Source: Leptolyngbya boryana PCC 6306 (GTDB lineage: Bacteria; Cyanobacteriota; Cyanobacteriia; Leptolyngbyales; Leptolyngbyaceae). From it: a stretch of DNA of 64,000 nucleotides. The stretch spans positions 3,242,577-3,306,576 of the forward strand of contig NZ_KB731324.1 in NCBI RefSeq assembly GCF_000353285.1, written 5' to 3'. The translations under genes were made by a program, and so were the position numbers. Positions 25,648 through 30,760 of the stretch are shown one piece after another. The stretch's first letter is position 1, and each line of letters begins with the position of its first letter. The notes beneath the pieces are model-generated. The model worked only from the letters and a program-made list of their open reading frames with translations, searched no databases and had not been told where the DNA came from.

Positions 25648-26145
25648 TTAAGGTGTTTTTTGCAGTTTCTGCAAGCGCAGGTTTGCTTCTTCAATCTGTT
25701 TCTGAAGCAGGGTTAAATTTGATTCCATGTTCTTCTTCTGAACTTCTAACACTTCCGTCTCTTTGCGGAGTCGTGCCATGCGGGCTTGATGATCTGCACT
25801 GCGTCCTGGTTGATAAATCAAGCCTAAATAAACGGTGACATTCGAGGCATCTAATGTATTGACACCAACTGACAAGTTCATCCCAAAATCATTCTCCGTA
25901 TTGACATAGGCATTCGGGAGGTTTTGTAGCGGGTAGATATTAGGAACGCGAATATTGGTGGTGTTGACGCTGTTGATGGGAACTTGTGGATTGTTTTGCA
26001 ACACTTGGTTGAAGTTTGAGTTTGCTCCAACGGTGCTGTTTTGATTACTCGTCGCGGTTTGGGCAAGACAGACCGGATTGTGAATGAATTGGACAGTGGC
26101 GATTCCAGACGCAATAGAAACAAAAGTTGTTAGAAGTCGTTTCAT
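25648..26145 (-). CDS. Exported protein with C-terminal coiled coil
   Basis: 165 residues, starting at the ATG at 26145 (MKRLLTTFVSIASGIATVQF) with a signal peptide ending near CLAQ. The middle is Asn-rich (QTATSNQNSTVGANSNFNQV) and then shows strand-like GMNLSVGVNTLDASNVTVYLG. The last 50 residues form a coiled coil (RLRKETEVLEVQKKNMESN, LQKQIEEANLRLQKLQ). It is the last gene of a leftward group of five small exported proteins with two curlin-like members, so a surface or anchoring role is inferred. It could be an outer-membrane accessory; no CsgF-like motif is certain. Confidence 0.65.
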   Translation of the reverse strand: MKRLLTTFVSIASGIATVQFIHNPVCLAQTATSNQNSTVGANSNFNQVLQNNPQVPINSVNTTNIRVPNIYPLQNLPNAYVNTENDFGMNLSVGVNTLDASNVTVYLGLIYQPGRSADHQARMARLRKETEVLEVQKKNMESNLTLLQKQIEEANLRLQKLQKTP

Positions 26146-26199: not shown

Positions 26200-26249
26200 C
26201 AAAAATCAACGATCGTTTAACGATTGAGTCTATCGATCGTTGATTTTTG
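26200..26249. terminator. 16-bp stem-loop between two exported-protein genes
   Basis: CAAAAATCAACGATCG pairs perfectly with CGATCGTTGATTTTTG. The A/T flanks make it a likely bidirectional intrinsic terminator. Confidence 0.8.
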
Positions 26250-26252
26250 TAT

Positions 26253-26738
26253 CTAACGGACGCTGACAATCAAACTGTGATTAAACGTGCCTGTGCCACT
26301 TGCTTGCTGTGAAACTTGAGTTCCTGCCCCTGAAAATTCAATGCGTAGCGCTCCACGCGCGGGCTGATATTTGCCGGAAATGTCGATCGTCTTGGTTCCG
26401 CGGGAGAGATAAGGAGCCAGATTAACAACAGTTCGCGAGCCTTTCAACGATTGAATCACTTTGTCTCCAATTTTGATTTGTCCACCGAGTTGTCCTTTTG
26501 CGATCGACACAGTTAACCAACACGGTTGCTTTAGCGCTGTTGATCTGAGCGTGACCGAAGTTCGTTGCCGATTGCTTTGCAAGGAAGAATTCAAAAGGGT
26601 TGTTTGCCCATTAGACTGAATCACCATACTGTTATTGCGGATTTGAAGCGAAGTTTGAGCAAAACTGCTCTGGCAAGCCAACAGCGAGAACACACAGAAC
26701 GTTCCAAAGCTCGATCTGAGTAATAATTGCGAATTCAT
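26253..26738 (-). CDS. Exported beta-rich protein beside curlin-like genes
   Basis: 161 residues from the ATG at 26738, preceded by GGACTCTTT. The signal peptide ends at SSFAQ, or is lipoprotein-like at SLLAC. The mature 130 residues are strand-rich with alternating residues: LQIRNNSMVIQSNGQTTLL, VTLRSTALKQPCWLTVSIAKG, GTKTIDISGKYQPARGALRIEF. This suggests a small immunoglobulin-like beta-sandwich. Size and position recall CsgC/CsgH chaperones of curli systems, but no sequence motif proves that. It is flanked on both sides by stem-loops. Confidence 0.6.
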   Translation of the reverse strand: MNSQLLLRSSFGTFCVFSLLACQSSFAQTSLQIRNNSMVIQSNGQTTLLNSSLQSNRQRTSVTLRSTALKQPCWLTVSIAKGQLGGQIKIGDKVIQSLKGSRTVVNLAPYLSRGTKTIDISGKYQPARGALRIEFSGAGTQVSQQASGTGTFNHSLIVSVR

Positions 26739-26772: not shown

Positions 26773-26806
26773 AATTCAGGAGATCGGATGGAGTCGCTCC
26801 TGAATT
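26773..26806. terminator. Intercistronic stem-loop in the exported-protein cluster
   Basis: AATTCAGGAG pairs with CTCCTGAATT across a 14-nt loop. T-poor flank, so processing or attenuation is as likely as termination. Confidence 0.5.
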
Positions 26807-26841: not shown

Positions 26842-27267
26842 TTAACCCATGTTTGTTTGTGGAATTCCACTAAAGCGATGCATAAAGGTCGGATCGAGCG
26901 CAGGACTATAAACATCAACTTGAGTATTGACTGGAATCTGAATCGTCGGACCTCCAATGCCTGGAACATTTGGAACTCCCTGCATTCCATCTGTAATTGT
27001 CGATTGACTATTGCGAATTTGCGTAGCGGTACCCGGTGTGACTGCTGTTTGAGAATTGGTCGTGACTGCTGCACCACCAACACATCCACCATTTGCAGTC
27101 ATGCCCACATTATTTTGCTGAGTGGAAGGGGTTTGCGATCCATGAATAGCTAACTGATTCGAGACATCAAGCATGACGCATTGAGCAGAAGCAGACGACG
27201 TAAATGCAGGTGCGAAAGGCAAGAAAGCTGCTGTAGAGAGAAGACCAATTGATAGTGACTTAAGCAT
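26842..27267 (-). CDS. Exported Gly/Asn/Gln-rich protein
   Basis: 141 residues from the ATG at 27267. The signal peptide is MLKSLSIGLLSTAAFLPFAP and cleavage is likely after SSASAQ. The mature part is low-complexity in Asn, Gln, Thr and Gly (TPSTQQNNVGMTANGGC, TNSQTAVTPGTATQIRNSQS) with two Cys that could form a disulfide. The composition fits a secreted fibre- or matrix-associated protein. It has no 34-residue repeat like its two neighbours upstream. It is third of five leftward genes, each separated by a hairpin. Confidence 0.6.
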   Translation of the reverse strand: MLKSLSIGLLSTAAFLPFAPAFTSSASAQCVMLDVSNQLAIHGSQTPSTQQNNVGMTANGGCVGGAAVTTNSQTAVTPGTATQIRNSQSTITDGMQGVPNVPGIGGPTIQIPVNTQVDVYSPALDPTFMHRFSGIPQTNMG

Positions 27268-27305
27268 GAGTGTGACTCCAGAATTGGGAGAGAGGAAAGG
27301 AACCT

Positions 27306-27331
27306 GCCGATTTTTTGCATCAGGAATCGGC
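27306..27331. terminator. Intercistronic stem-loop, copy A
   Basis: GCCGATT pairs with AATCGGC. The same stem recurs at 27913-27940 with related flanks (CTGCCGATTTTT and GGAATCGGC), so it is a repeated element of this cluster. Confidence 0.5.
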
Positions 27332-27366
27332 AAACCTGGGTGAATCTTGAGCGGTAAATCTTGAGC

Positions 27367-27870
27367 TTAGTGCTGACCTACAACGGCGGTAGCTGCATTG
27401 CCTTGAGCACTGGTATTGCCATAGCCATACTGACCTGCATTTTGCACATTGCCTTGATAGACCATTGCACCATTGATGTTCGTAGGATTAGAGGGATAGT
27501 AAGGATAGTAGGGAGCGCTACCTTGGAAGACATTGGCAGTAGCAGAGTTGCCTTGAATCGAAGTGTTGCCATGACCAATTTGAGTGGCATTTTGATCATT
27601 CGATTGAATCACGCTTGCGCCATTGATTCCAGCAGTTGGGCAGGGTGCAGCAAAGCACTGAATTCCGTAGTAAGGCGAACCATTTTGAGTGACAACTCCA
27701 GTTTGGACGTTTCCTTGAACAGATACATTACCGCTACCGACTTGAGTGGTGCTCTGATCCGAAGTTTGAACGACCGAAGCTGCATTTTGAGCGAAAGCGG
27801 GAGCCGTTGCGAAGCCACAAACAGAAGTTAACAATGCGATCACGCCAAGTTTGATTGATTTAACAGACAT
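27367..27870 (-). CDS. Curlin-like repeat protein (three 34-residue repeats), paralogue 2
   Basis: 167 residues. The signal peptide ends at APAFA-Q. Three repeats occupy residues 29-62, 83-116 and 133-166 with the shared pattern N-(G/A)-A-x-V-x-Q, x3-Q, x3-Q-x-G-x-G-N, x-S-x-Q-G-N, x2-T-x2-V-x-Q. The regularly spaced Gln, Gly and Asn are the hallmark of curlin (CsgA/CsgB) amyloid repeats. Linkers of 20 and 16 residues are Tyr/Pro-rich (SAPYYPYYPSNPTNI). The first linker has two Cys. Expected location is the cell surface or matrix. No CsgG-like secretion pore gene is in the window. Confidence 0.75.
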   Translation of the reverse strand: MSVKSIKLGVIALLTSVCGFATAPAFAQNAASVVQTSDQSTTQVGSGNVSVQGNVQTGVVTQNGSPYYGIQCFAAPCPTAGINGASVIQSNDQNATQIGHGNTSIQGNSATANVFQGSAPYYPYYPSNPTNINGAMVYQGNVQNAGQYGYGNTSAQGNAATAVVGQH

Positions 27871-27912
27871 GATGAGTTTTTCCTTTTGTTGAATAGAGTG
27901 TGAAGTGAGTCT

Positions 27913-27940
27913 GCCGATTTTTAGCGAGTGGGGAATCGGC
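27913..27940. terminator. Intercistronic stem-loop, copy B
   Basis: GCCGATT/AATCGGC with a 14-nt loop, related to the copy at 27306-27331. Confidence 0.5.
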
Positions 27941-27958
27941 GAAACCCGGTTGTGAAAT

Positions 27959-28435
27959 TTAGTGTTGGGTTACGGTTGCATCCGTTGCACTGCCTTGAAC
28001 AGAGCTGTTGAATCCACCGAATTGAAATGCACCTTGTTGGCTGCCTTGAACGACATTTGCACCATTCACACCCGGAGTCGGATAGCCGGGGAACCAAGGA
28101 GAAGTCGGTGTTCCTTGCGTTACCGTTGCGCTGGTTGCGTTGCCTTGAATGTTGGTGTTGCCGTAGCCAATTTGACCTGCTTGTTGAGAGTTGCCTTGAA
28201 TCACGTTTGCGCCGTTGATGCTGGCGCCGTAAGGATACACGGGTGAACTCAATTGAGTCACATCAGCCGTTTGTAAGTTGCCTTGCACCGAAACGTTTCC
28301 GACTCCAGCTTGTTCTGTGCCTTGGCTGGATTGTTGAACGACCGAAGCTGCGTTTTGAGCGAAAGCAGGAGCGGTCATCAATACAGCAGACATTAAACCG
28401 AAGAAGGAAGTTTTGATTGCTTTTGCAGTAGTCAT
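27959..28435 (-). CDS. Curlin-like repeat protein (three 34-residue repeats), paralogue 1
   Basis: 158 residues. The signal peptide ends at APAFA-Q. Repeats at residues 28-61, 74-107 and 124-157 follow the same consensus as the next gene, for example NGANVIQGNSQQAGQIGYGN followed by TNIQGN. The linkers are YPYG- and PWFPGYP-rich. Both paralogues end in a repeat plus a single His. The leaders of the two genes share a block ending TATTCAACAA, which supports origin by tandem duplication. It is the promoter-proximal gene of the leftward cluster. Likely a functional amyloid subunit or nucleator. Confidence 0.75.
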   Translation of the reverse strand: MTTAKAIKTSFFGLMSAVLMTAPAFAQNAASVVQQSSQGTEQAGVGNVSVQGNLQTADVTQLSSPVYPYGASINGANVIQGNSQQAGQIGYGNTNIQGNATSATVTQGTPTSPWFPGYPTPGVNGANVVQGSQQGAFQFGGFNSSVQGSATDATVTQH

Positions 28436-28913
28436 TGTTCGTTGTCCCTTGTTGAATAAAGTGTGTGTTTGAGTTGAACCTGAGAGGTTGTTTTAGCGGT
28501 TCACTCTTCTCTACGACTCGTTTTTCGATTTATGCAGCTCTGAATCTTTTGGTCTATTTTTTGTGACACATTCAGTGTTGTTCTGCGTTGTCGAATCTAT
28601 TGCTGAACTTGTTAGTTCGAGTGAGTCAGATTTGAGTGATTTGCTTTGTTTCCTCTCACACTCTGAACTACGACCTGTTCTTGTGGCTTATGCAGGCTTG
28701 CTCGAAAATTTTTGAATTTAAAGCCTTGAAACTGCTGCTGTATATGAATTGCACAATTTTAGGAAAAGTTTTACGCTTGCTTTTAATATAGGGTGAGCTG
28801 CATAAAACCTGTTCGTCATTCGCATAGAAAAGAAGAAGCCAGCAATCATCTCAACTGTGCTTCTAAATTTATCCAGTCGTTGGATTACAAGATTATCCAC
28901 ACAGGAGGTTTTT
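28436..28913. promoter_or_regulatory. 478-bp divergent region, curlin-like cluster and kinase
   Basis: No coding frame of note. It should hold the promoter of the exported-protein cluster and that of the kinase gene. An AGGAGG lies at 28902-28907, just before the kinase ATG. No palindrome stood out. Confidence 0.4.
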
Positions 28914-30158
28914 ATGGTTGAGCATCAAGCAGGAGATGCCTTTGTCAGAATTGTCTACGCCAAAGTGCAGTCCAACGGCAGAACTGAGATGGTTCCACTC
29001 AAACTCTATGTCGATGGCTCACTCGAACACATTACCGGATCGCTGTTTGCCTCTTCTGAATCAGAAGTCTCTGCTCAATCTTTACTCAGCAATCGCTATC
29101 AGATTCAGCGAGTCCTCGGTCAGGGAGGCTTCGGTAGAACTTATCTCGCTGTCGATCGACATCGGTTTAATGAGCTTTGCGTCGTCAAAGAGTTTCATCC
29201 GCACAGTACAGAAGAATATGAGCTTGAAAAATCTCGTGATCTATTTGAGCGAGAAGCTAAAATTTTGCATGACATTGATCATCCTCAGATTCCAAAGTTT
29301 CTGGCTTGTTTTGAAGAAATGGATCGTCTGTTTCTGGTGCAAGAGTATGTGAAAGGACGCACCTATTCTGCATTGCTGCGAGAACGGCAGGGAGAAGGAT
29401 TTGCTGAAGGAGAAGTTCTGCACTGGCTGAAAGATTTACTGCCAGTGCTAGCTTATATTCACGATCGTAATATCATTCACCGTGATATTTCGCCGGACAA
29501 TATCATGCTGCATCAAGATCTCAATGTTCCGATGCTGATTGATTTCGGGGTCGGAAAATGGACGATCGAGCAGCTTTCTAATGAAGTTCCTGCTTATTCG
29601 AGAAAGCATTCGATCGTTGGAAAAGTAGGGTATGCACCTCATGAGCAGCTTTGGATGGGGCAGTGTTTTCCTAGTAGCGATTTATATGCTTTGGCAGTAA
29701 CCGCGATCGTACTTTTAACCGGAAAAGAACCAAAGAATTTAGTCGATTCTCGGACACTTTCCTGGCAGTGGCAAAAGCATGTGCAAGTCAGCGATCGCTT
29801 TGCCAAAGTGCTTAATACTATGCTGAATGACAAGCCGAGTGAACGGTATGCTTCCGCTCAAGATGTGTTAGCAGCATTAGAGAACTCAGATACTACCTTA
29901 GTGAGCCAGGTTCCTGTGGTTACAGTGGTGAGTCAATCCGCGATCGCACCACAGCAGGCAACAATTAGTGCGGTATTGATTGATCAATGCGAGCGAGAGT
30001 TAGTCAATTACATCGGGCCAGTTGCTCGATTTTTAGTTCAAGAAGTTCTCAGTGGTGTCACTTCGTCAGAGGGATTGCTCACAGCATTGGCCGCTAAAAT
30101 TCCGAATGCTCAACATGCGATCGAATTTCAACGTAAGTTATCTCGAATCGTTGCATAA
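28914..30158 (+). CDS. Serine/threonine protein kinase (Hanks type)
   Basis: 414 residues. The ATG at 28914 is chosen because AGGAGG is 7 nt upstream. The glycine loop is GQGGFGRTY (69-77), catalytic Lys at about 92 (CVVKEF), catalytic loop HRDISPDN with Asp-191, DFG at 210-212 and an activation segment ending in GYAPHEQ. All catalytic residues are present. An N-terminal 60-residue segment precedes the kinase domain and a C-terminal 80 residues follow. There is no transmembrane segment. The divergent gene encodes a curlin-like protein and the next gene an exported Pro-rich protein, so it could regulate surface structures; that is inference. Confidence 0.88.
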   Translation: MVEHQAGDAFVRIVYAKVQSNGRTEMVPLKLYVDGSLEHITGSLFASSESEVSAQSLLSNRYQIQRVLGQGGFGRTYLAVDRHRFNELCVVKEFHPHSTEEYELEKSRDLFEREAKILHDIDHPQIPKFLACFEEMDRLFLVQEYVKGRTYSALLRERQGEGFAEGEVLHWLKDLLPVLAYIHDRNIIHRDISPDNIMLHQDLNVPMLIDFGVGKWTIEQLSNEVPAYSRKHSIVGKVGYAPHEQLWMGQCFPSSDLYALAVTAIVLLTGKEPKNLVDSRTLSWQWQKHVQVSDRFAKVLNTMLNDKPSERYASAQDVLAALENSDTTLVSQVPVVTVVSQSAIAPQQATISAVLIDQCERELVNYIGPVARFLVQEVLSGVTSSEGLLTALAAKIPNAQHAIEFQRKLSRIVA

Positions 30159-30226: not shown

Positions 30227-30760
30227 ATGTCTAAGCCCCTTCATGCTTTCGTTCAAGTAAGTGGAATGCTAGCGATTTTACTCAGTGCAACTTATAGTAG
30301 TCCGTCAAAAGCTTCTGCCCAGTCTCTTCTCCCGGATATTAGCCTGATCGAAGGCGGACAAGTTTGTCTAGCACTGTGTACTTCAACACCGACTCAAGGT
30401 GCTCCGAATCAAGGGTTAGGTGCATTACCTGCTCAATTGATGCAGCTTCCCGGTCAAGTCCTTCAACTTCCAGGTCAAATTCTATCTTCTCAAAGCTCTC
30501 AAGTGATGCGCTCTAATCTTCCAATACTGCCACCTGGAGGTGCGCCGATGATACCACCGGGAGCACCACAAGGATTGCCGCCCGGAGCACCACCTCAAGG
30601 ACTCCCACTTGGAGCACCTCAAGGACTACCACCTGGAGCACTGCCGCCTGGAGCACCGCCTCAAGGATCAGTATCACAAGCTCCACAGTCTCAACGCACT
30701 AGTTTTCTGAAGAAGATTGCACCTGTGTTGCCAGTGGTGATTCAGCAGTTGGCGAAGTAA
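30227..30760 (+). CDS. Exported proline/glycine-rich repeat protein
   Basis: 177 residues. The signal peptide ends near SKASAQ. Residues about 100-150 are repeats of PPGAPQGL-like units (variants PPGAPPQGL, PLGAPQGL, PPGALPPGA), an extended polyproline-II-like region. The protein ends in a short basic, hydrophobic helix (SFLKKIAPVLPVVIQQLAK). Two Cys near residue 50 (CLALC) may form a disulfide. The start has AAGAGGT upstream and follows the kinase by 68 bp, so both may share a transcript. Probable cell-wall or extracellular protein. Its 3' end overlaps a decayed convergent gene. Confidence 0.65.
   Translation: MSKPLHAFVQVSGMLAILLSATYSSPSKASAQSLLPDISLIEGGQVCLALCTSTPTQGAPNQGLGALPAQLMQLPGQVLQLPGQILSSQSSQVMRSNLPILPPGGAPMIPPGAPQGLPPGAPPQGLPLGAPQGLPPGALPPGAPPQGSVSQAPQSQRTSFLKKIAPVLPVVIQQLAK

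Follow-up and report, generated by a model that had tools for sequence, protein, structure and literature searches.

The window, i.e. the whole stretch of 64,000 nt of Leptolyngbya boryana PCC 6306 analysed here, carries a unit of five genes in the order P1-P2-C-D-E, all on the minus strand and headed by the P1-P2 pair. The genes are separated by gaps of 88, 99, 103 and 107 bases, each of the four containing an inverted repeat, and the same five-gene order is found in three genomes (that of the window, G001 and G025). The features are, from the first gene onwards:

27959..28435, minus strand: P1, exported-looking protein of 158 aa with three repeats, conserved in G001 and G025
28253..28357, minus strand: P1 repeat 1, 35 residues
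28115..28219, minus strand: P1 repeat 2
27965..28069, minus strand: P1 repeat 3
27913..27940, minus strand: possible stem-loop in the P1-P2 gap, 7-nt arms GCCGATT / AATCGGC
27367..27870, minus strand: P2, paralogue of P1, 167 aa, three repeats
27685..27789, minus strand: P2 repeat 1
27523..27627, minus strand: P2 repeat 2
27373..27477, minus strand: P2 repeat 3
27305..27332, minus strand: possible stem-loop in the P2-C gap, arms TGCCGATT / AATCGGCA, no chance control
26842..27267, minus strand: C, exported-looking, without a match in Pfam at E <= 1; two cysteines are invariant, and the gene serves as marker of the wider system
26773..26806, minus strand: possible stem-loop in the C-D gap, arms AATTCAGGAG / CTCCTGAATT, no chance control
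26253..26738, minus strand: D, exported-looking; its C-terminal domain is all-beta and probably a sandwich
26200..26249, minus strand: stem-loop in the D-E gap, perfect arms of 16 nt
25648..26145, minus strand: E, exported-looking, with an N-terminal stretch similar to a single repeat, a conserved middle and a helical-looking C-terminus
28857-30158 and 30227-30760, plus strand: neighbouring Ser/Thr kinase and Pro-rich exported protein

The reading frames bear out an earlier note on this DNA, which had described two exported tandem paralogues with three repeats each; the repeat core comprises 35 residues in both proteins. P1 and P2 begin with a signal-peptide-like sequence ending AFAQ and, judged by eye, their N-termini follow the n-h-c pattern of signal peptides ending in A-x-A. 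The repeats of the window proteins are joined by Tyr/Pro-rich linkers of 11–19 residues, which gives a full period of 46–54 residues. Both proteins are rich in Gln, Gly, Asn, Ser, Thr and Ala, and charged residues (D, E, K, R) number 3 in the 131 mature residues of P1 and 2 in the 139 of P2. Compared to the copies in G001, dN/dS is 0.195 for P1 and 0.177 for P2; both genes are under purifying selection. Few genomes have the three-repeat form, namely 3 of 42 in the order and 3 of 388 in the class; within the genus, too, its occurrence is patchy (2 of 8 genomes). When the own genome was searched for further copies of the repeat with a wider profile, only P1, P2 and one frame of 54 aa (E 0.042) were returned, the latter being taken as chance. 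The same holds for matches of P1 to the NCBIfam models BhsA (E 0.041, 14.4 bits against a cut-off of 90) and BsmA (E 0.19), and of P2 to PRK10691 (E 0.04, below the curated cut-off). All cluster members scanned stay below the cut-offs of Pfam and NCBIfam.

From the window, G001 and G025 a set of 18 repeats in six proteins was derived. Their spacing is fixed, without indels, and eight residues (Q8, Q12, Q16, G18, N21, Q25, G26 and Q35) are invariant in all 18. These eight were named by the very pattern with which the repeats were cut; a free alignment of the six proteins likewise shows no variation in these eight columns, whichever of the three repeats is considered. By majority the repeats read x-N-[GA]-A-x-V-x-Q-x-[NS]-x-Q-x-x-x-Q-x-G-x-G-N-x-[SA]-[VI]-Q-G-[NS]-x-x-x-[AG]-x-V-x-Q. 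Thus the Gln/Gly/Asn ladder with the spacing Q-x3-Q-x-G-x-G-N stands as described before, but the second element of the earlier note, x-S-x-Q-G-N, has to be relaxed to x-[SA]-x-Q-G-[NS], because 10 of the 18 repeats have S at position 23 and 7 have A, and just 15 have N at position 27. The motif Q-x3-Q-x3-Q-x-G-x2-N-x3-Q-G, which was chosen post hoc, occurs three times in P1 and three times in P2, compared to four times in total among 20,000 shuffles of each mature protein (2 x 20,000). A chance origin of the repeat motif is excluded.

The conserved positions alternate, falling on 4, 6, 8, 10, 12, 14 and 16 before the turn and on 23, 25, 27, 29, 31, 33 and 35 after it. In the 18 window-type repeats facing versus interleaved positions have 3.80 versus 1.89 bits in strand 1 and 3.63 versus 2.56 in strand 2; for the 62 repeats of the wider family described below the values are 2.35 versus 1.13 and 2.15 versus 1.00, and in neither set did any of 20,000 label permutations reach the observed alternation. 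Such alternating conservation is the signature of two beta-strands, constrained on one face, around a G-x-G-N turn. If the repeat is folded on this turn, the pairs 4(A)/33(V), 6(V)/31(A or G), 12(Q)/25(Q) and 16(Q)/21(N) are each compatible in 18 of 18 repeats, a count which takes T and I as small or hydrophobic and infers the facing itself. Since glycine is found at position 9 in 9 and at position 26 in all 18 repeats of the window family, a kinked four-strand Greek-key-like unit is possible, too; according to PMC12822426 the FapC repeats form such a Greek-key-like unit. The curlin repeat has four inward positions per strand (PMC10192328), compared to about eight in the repeats of P1 and P2. 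The description of the unit as about one and a half canonical repeats is better replaced by that of one long arch with two strands of about 15 residues, or of a folded four-strand unit. AlphaFold2, run on P1 and P2 together, returned a model of P1 with a mean pLDDT of 39.9, too low to count as evidence on the beta-solenoid prediction named as a check in the earlier note. In this model the G-x-G-N of repeat 2 lies between strands 78-89 and 94-107.

Gene C was used as a marker to look for the system beyond these three genomes. Its profile matches 42 of the 388 genomes of the class, including one doubtful case (G132, E 9.2e-4, internal stops), from 26 of 160 genera and ten numbered families. The profile of E matches 11 of the 388, one of them by a fragment (G362, 56 positions, one stop). 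Outside the window, 24 C loci were read; they come from 23 of the remaining 41 genomes with C. An iterated repeat profile finds a relative of P1/P2 in 22 of these 24, in 21 of them upstream and on the same strand; none of the repeat proteins lies on the opposite strand and all are within 2.3 kb. Two of the 22 positive loci (L008 and L009) had supplied seed repeats. By profile, repeat proteins adjoin C in eight of the ten C-bearing numbered families. The iterated profile started from window-type repeats and was refined on the very 852 ORFs (26 loci) that it was used to search, with G18 and N21 forced by the choice of segments. At E < 0.001 it matches 39 of these ORFs, all in C loci, and 0 of 852 shuffled ones. 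At the same threshold 16 further proteins, from 14 loci, are matched by the non-iterated profile A1, which covers the whole protein with its signal peptide, and just two non-seed proteins by the seed repeat profile alone. The C loci L089 and L100 gave no match to the iterated profile; by eye, both hold repeat-like exported proteins. Most of the wider relatives have two detected repeats, a few have one and one has four. In the 62 segments from these proteins position 8 is Q in 55, position 12 in 58, position 25 in 55 and position 29 in 61. D is present in 15 of the 24 loci and E in 7, some of the stretches reaching contig ends. Contig scans with P1 and with alignment A1 yielded no relatives; these came from the search of the genome set.

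Members of the cluster are also found on a plasmid. In Rippkaea orientalis PCC 8801, pP880101 carries a copy of C together with D and a 358-aa protein with two detected repeats, furthermore a caspase-domain protein, a sigma-70-like protein and DUF1822. The annotation lists C, D, the repeat protein and the gene preceding C as hypothetical only. This was the one match of the plasmid search with the C of L092 as query; with the window's C the plasmid search gave no match.

Several other observations were made at these loci. A small exported protein with a C-terminal cysteine is often seen by eye between the repeat protein and C. Upstream of C, L097 (2199-3910) has four and L099 (6367-7779) three similar exported proteins in tandem; they are about 111-116 aa long, have two Gly/Asn/Gln repeats and are missed by the repeat profile. 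Exported proteins of 368 aa with four profile-detected repeats and of 358 aa with two are encoded at L095 6110-7216 and L102 1660-2736, respectively. A match of one wider repeat protein to SpoVAE (E 0.00069) was below the curated cut-off and is taken as chance. A sigma-70-like protein adjoins a DUF1822 protein near the cluster in L008 (8606-10988), L089 (799-3175) and L104 (5346-6868), and dedicated regulation is possible. In all three genomes with the five-gene order a divergent Ser/Thr kinase (PF00069 in the window) and the Pro-rich exported protein adjoin the cluster; in G001 and G025 an FHA-ABC2 transporter follows this pair, and a caspase-domain protein is near in both. These neighbours were assigned by Pfam for the window kinase and for the transporter and caspase of G001, and by eye for the others.

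The inverted repeats in the gaps have counterparts as well. In the P1-P2 gap of G001 the arms are 8 nt long (TGCCGATT/AATCGGCA, L008 6237-6267), and arms like those of the window's P2-C gap are found at L008 6815-6839 and L009 8595-8634. G001 has arms of the GCCGATT/AATCGGC type, as in the window's P1-P2 and P2-C gaps, in both of these gaps, and G025 in one; each region yields 19-20 inverted-repeat pairs, a number without chance control. These elements may tune mRNA stability or stoichiometry.

A relationship between the N-terminus of E and the repeats of P1/P2 is weakly suggested by profile comparison. At E <= 1 the profile of E has 12 matches other than E, of which 10 are below E 0.1; all 12 belong to the 39 repeat proteins, and after removal of the signal peptides 7 of the 12 score above all 200 shuffles. 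The reverse test, E proteins against the repeats, was positive (at most 2 of 200 shuffles) in just 3 of 9.

The earlier note had seen in the Gln/Gly/Asn ladder that of the curli subunits CsgA and CsgB. The ladder itself and the Q-x-G-x-G-N turn fit a stacked beta-arch, but most of the tests for curlin failed. The Pfam curlin model PF07012, put forward in that note as a check that could refute it, has no match in the own genome, nor at E <= 10 in any of the six members or of ten wider relatives. QX10Q is the kernel of the curlin repeat, which is about 23 residues long (PMC10192328); in turn register it occurs in none of the 18 window-type and none of the 62 wider repeats, and anywhere in the repeat in 7 of 18 and 11 of 62, E. 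coli CsgA holding 7. The turn Q-x-G-x-x-N, i.e. an X-G-X-X arc preceded by Q and followed by N, is found in 18 of 18 window-type repeats, the Q before the arc in just 6 of the 62 wider ones, and the half-motif N-x-Psi-x-Psi-x-Q in 17 of 18. Against CsgA the profile of the window-type repeats scores 12.0 bits, which 1 of 500 shuffles reaches; it gives nothing against CsgB (reached by 368 of 500), and the wider profile matches neither CsgA nor CsgB (346 and 419 of 500). Homology to CsgA and CsgB is not claimed here, because the match of the narrow profile to CsgA is the only one that stands out. In a comparison with solved structures, a curlin chain (8enq) comes third with E 0.7, below two cyanovirin-N chains.

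Components for curli export were looked for in the own genome. CsgE and CsgF were not found there, and one gene of the CsgG family is present; the search for CsgG proposed in the earlier note therefore had a positive outcome as such, but the gene lies 0.8 Mb away and is not tied to the cluster. It encodes a stand-alone protein of 261 aa (L001 1420-2205) with Gly-rich stretches; its neighbours within 3.6 kb look unrelated by eye. E. coli CsgG is a lipoprotein, and by eye no lipobox cysteine is seen in the protein found here. Genes of the CsgG family occur in 118 of the 388 class genomes, namely in 8 of 42 with C versus 110 of 346 without C, as counted by hand from both lists on the assumption that they cover the same 388 genomes. 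By Fisher's test (p 0.11) there is no association; avoidance is not proven. No CsgG-family gene was found in G001, a 96% complete genome with the full cluster. The Pfam CsgG model also picks up paralogues, 171 of 601 matches being correct (PMC3521004, Table 1). We reject CsgG as a partner of the cluster. As C, D and E stay below every Pfam cut-off, none of them is the CsgE, CsgF or CsgG of Pfam.

These results bear directly on the possibility that P1 and P2 are diverged CsgA/CsgB proteins which leave the cell through the genome's CsgG-family protein. The fully conserved turn, the nearly constant half-motif, the weak similarity to CsgA and the single CsgG-family gene speak for it. They are outweighed by the lack of PF07012 matches and of the QX10Q register, by CsgE and CsgF not being found in the genome and by a CsgG-family gene that is remote, has no visible lipobox, is no more frequent in genomes with C and was not found in G001. 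This possibility is already largely refuted and very improbable, and we reject bona fide curli. Membership in curli is what the failed tests deny; a protein that works like curli is still compatible with them. By analogy P1 and P2 do resemble curli subunits, while standing outside the curli family: they are exported-looking, consist of imperfect repeats with the Q-x-G-x-x-N turn and the N-x-Psi-x-Psi-x-Q half-motif and come as two adjacent paralogues, but their repeat core, with 35 residues, is longer than the curlin repeat of about 23, and linkers separate the repeats. Alternatively, the repeats might form a low-complexity Gln/Asn-rich spacer with no defined fold, whose likeness to curlin is one of composition. 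The low-confidence model of P1 and the richness in Gln, Gly, Asn, Ser, Thr and Ala would agree with a spacer, but the fixed, indel-free spacing of 18 repeats, their alternating conservation, the shuffles and dN/dS values near 0.2 make it improbable.

A more serious alternative is that of exported beta-solenoids, monomeric or oligomeric, which act in a sheath, slime or polysaccharide-binding matrix without forming self-propagating fibres. Proteins of two to four repeats are short for a subunit of a solenoid fibre, several wider relatives have charged tails that by eye look disordered, and the four-repeat protein of L095 has a PEP-CTERM-like end (E 0.0037, below the cut-off), which would suggest anchoring in the wall or matrix. 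On the other hand, P1 and P2 are almost without charge, and Gln/Asn ladders stabilise the amyloids of CsgA and FapC (PMC10192328, PMC12822426). We regard such non-amyloid solenoids as a minority possibility to be taken seriously.

Two further systems invite comparison. Fap has three imperfect repeats split by linkers and conserved Gln/Asn (PMC12822426); P1 and P2 likewise have three imperfect, linker-joined repeats with conserved Gln/Asn, whereas their wider relatives mostly have two. In a set of solved structures that may or may not include FapC, no Fap chain was seen at E <= 10. The biofilm proteins EbfG1-4 of Synechococcus elongatus are small, secreted and cyanobacterial, as P1 and P2 appear to be. 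The EbfG leader is of the double-glycine type, and by eye there is no Gly-Gly in the N-terminus of P1 or P2; unlike EbfG as described, both have Sec-type signal-like sequences at their start. In a heterologous assay EbfG1-3 form amyloid, and EbfG secretion involves PteB, of the C39 peptidase family, and EbfE (PMC9981879).

Weighing all this, we consider it about an even matter that P1 and P2 are subunits of an exported cyanobacterial beta-arch repeat system which is like curli and Fap and a member of neither. That they form fibres, probably at the surface or in the matrix, is put forward with the same reserve. The 35-residue repeat would be one long strand-arc-strand arch of about 15 + 15 residues with the inward row N-A-V-Q-s-Q-a-Q / N-s-Q-N-t-A-V-Q or, alternatively, a kinked four-strand Greek-key-like unit. 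Repeats would stack via Gln/Asn ladders with the Tyr/Pro linkers looping outward, and P1 and P2 may co-assemble into a surface or matrix fibre. As guesses from their sequence features, C with its two cysteines might be a minor, stabilising or anchoring subunit, E with its repeat-like N-terminus and helical-looking C-terminus might nucleate or anchor, and D with its all-beta domain might be a periplasmic accessory protein or chaperone. Exit through the outer membrane probably does not use a dedicated CsgG pore; an exporter for P1 and P2 was not found. The undescribed surface fibre proposed in the earlier note is the leading idea, though unproven. More tentatively, the cluster with C, D and E may constitute a cyanobacterial functional-amyloid system, widespread in the class and independent of CsgG, with double-width arches, two to four per subunit, that builds the matrix of sheaths, biofilms or mats.

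The cluster to which these cyanobacterial genes belong is not curli and apparently has no name yet. Among the open-licence matches listed, none describes it in the title or the beginning of the abstract, which is weak evidence of absence. Carriers of curli have been named among the Proteobacteria and Bacteroidetes, besides one Firmicutes and one Thermodesulfobacteria strain (PMC3521004); a later survey adds Desulfobacterota, Nitrospirota and Bacillota for curli and/or Fap, and the sections of these surveys considered here name no cyanobacterium as a carrier of either. Whether or not amyloid is formed, the repeat proteins make up a widespread cluster with C, D and E, and its scanned members lie below the cut-offs of Pfam and NCBIfam. 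Should P1, P2 and their relatives polymerise, the amyloid beta-arch would gain a wider variant with a different set for export and anchoring, and the mats and sheaths of cyanobacteria would contain a conserved scaffold of protein, the genes of which are open to knock-out.
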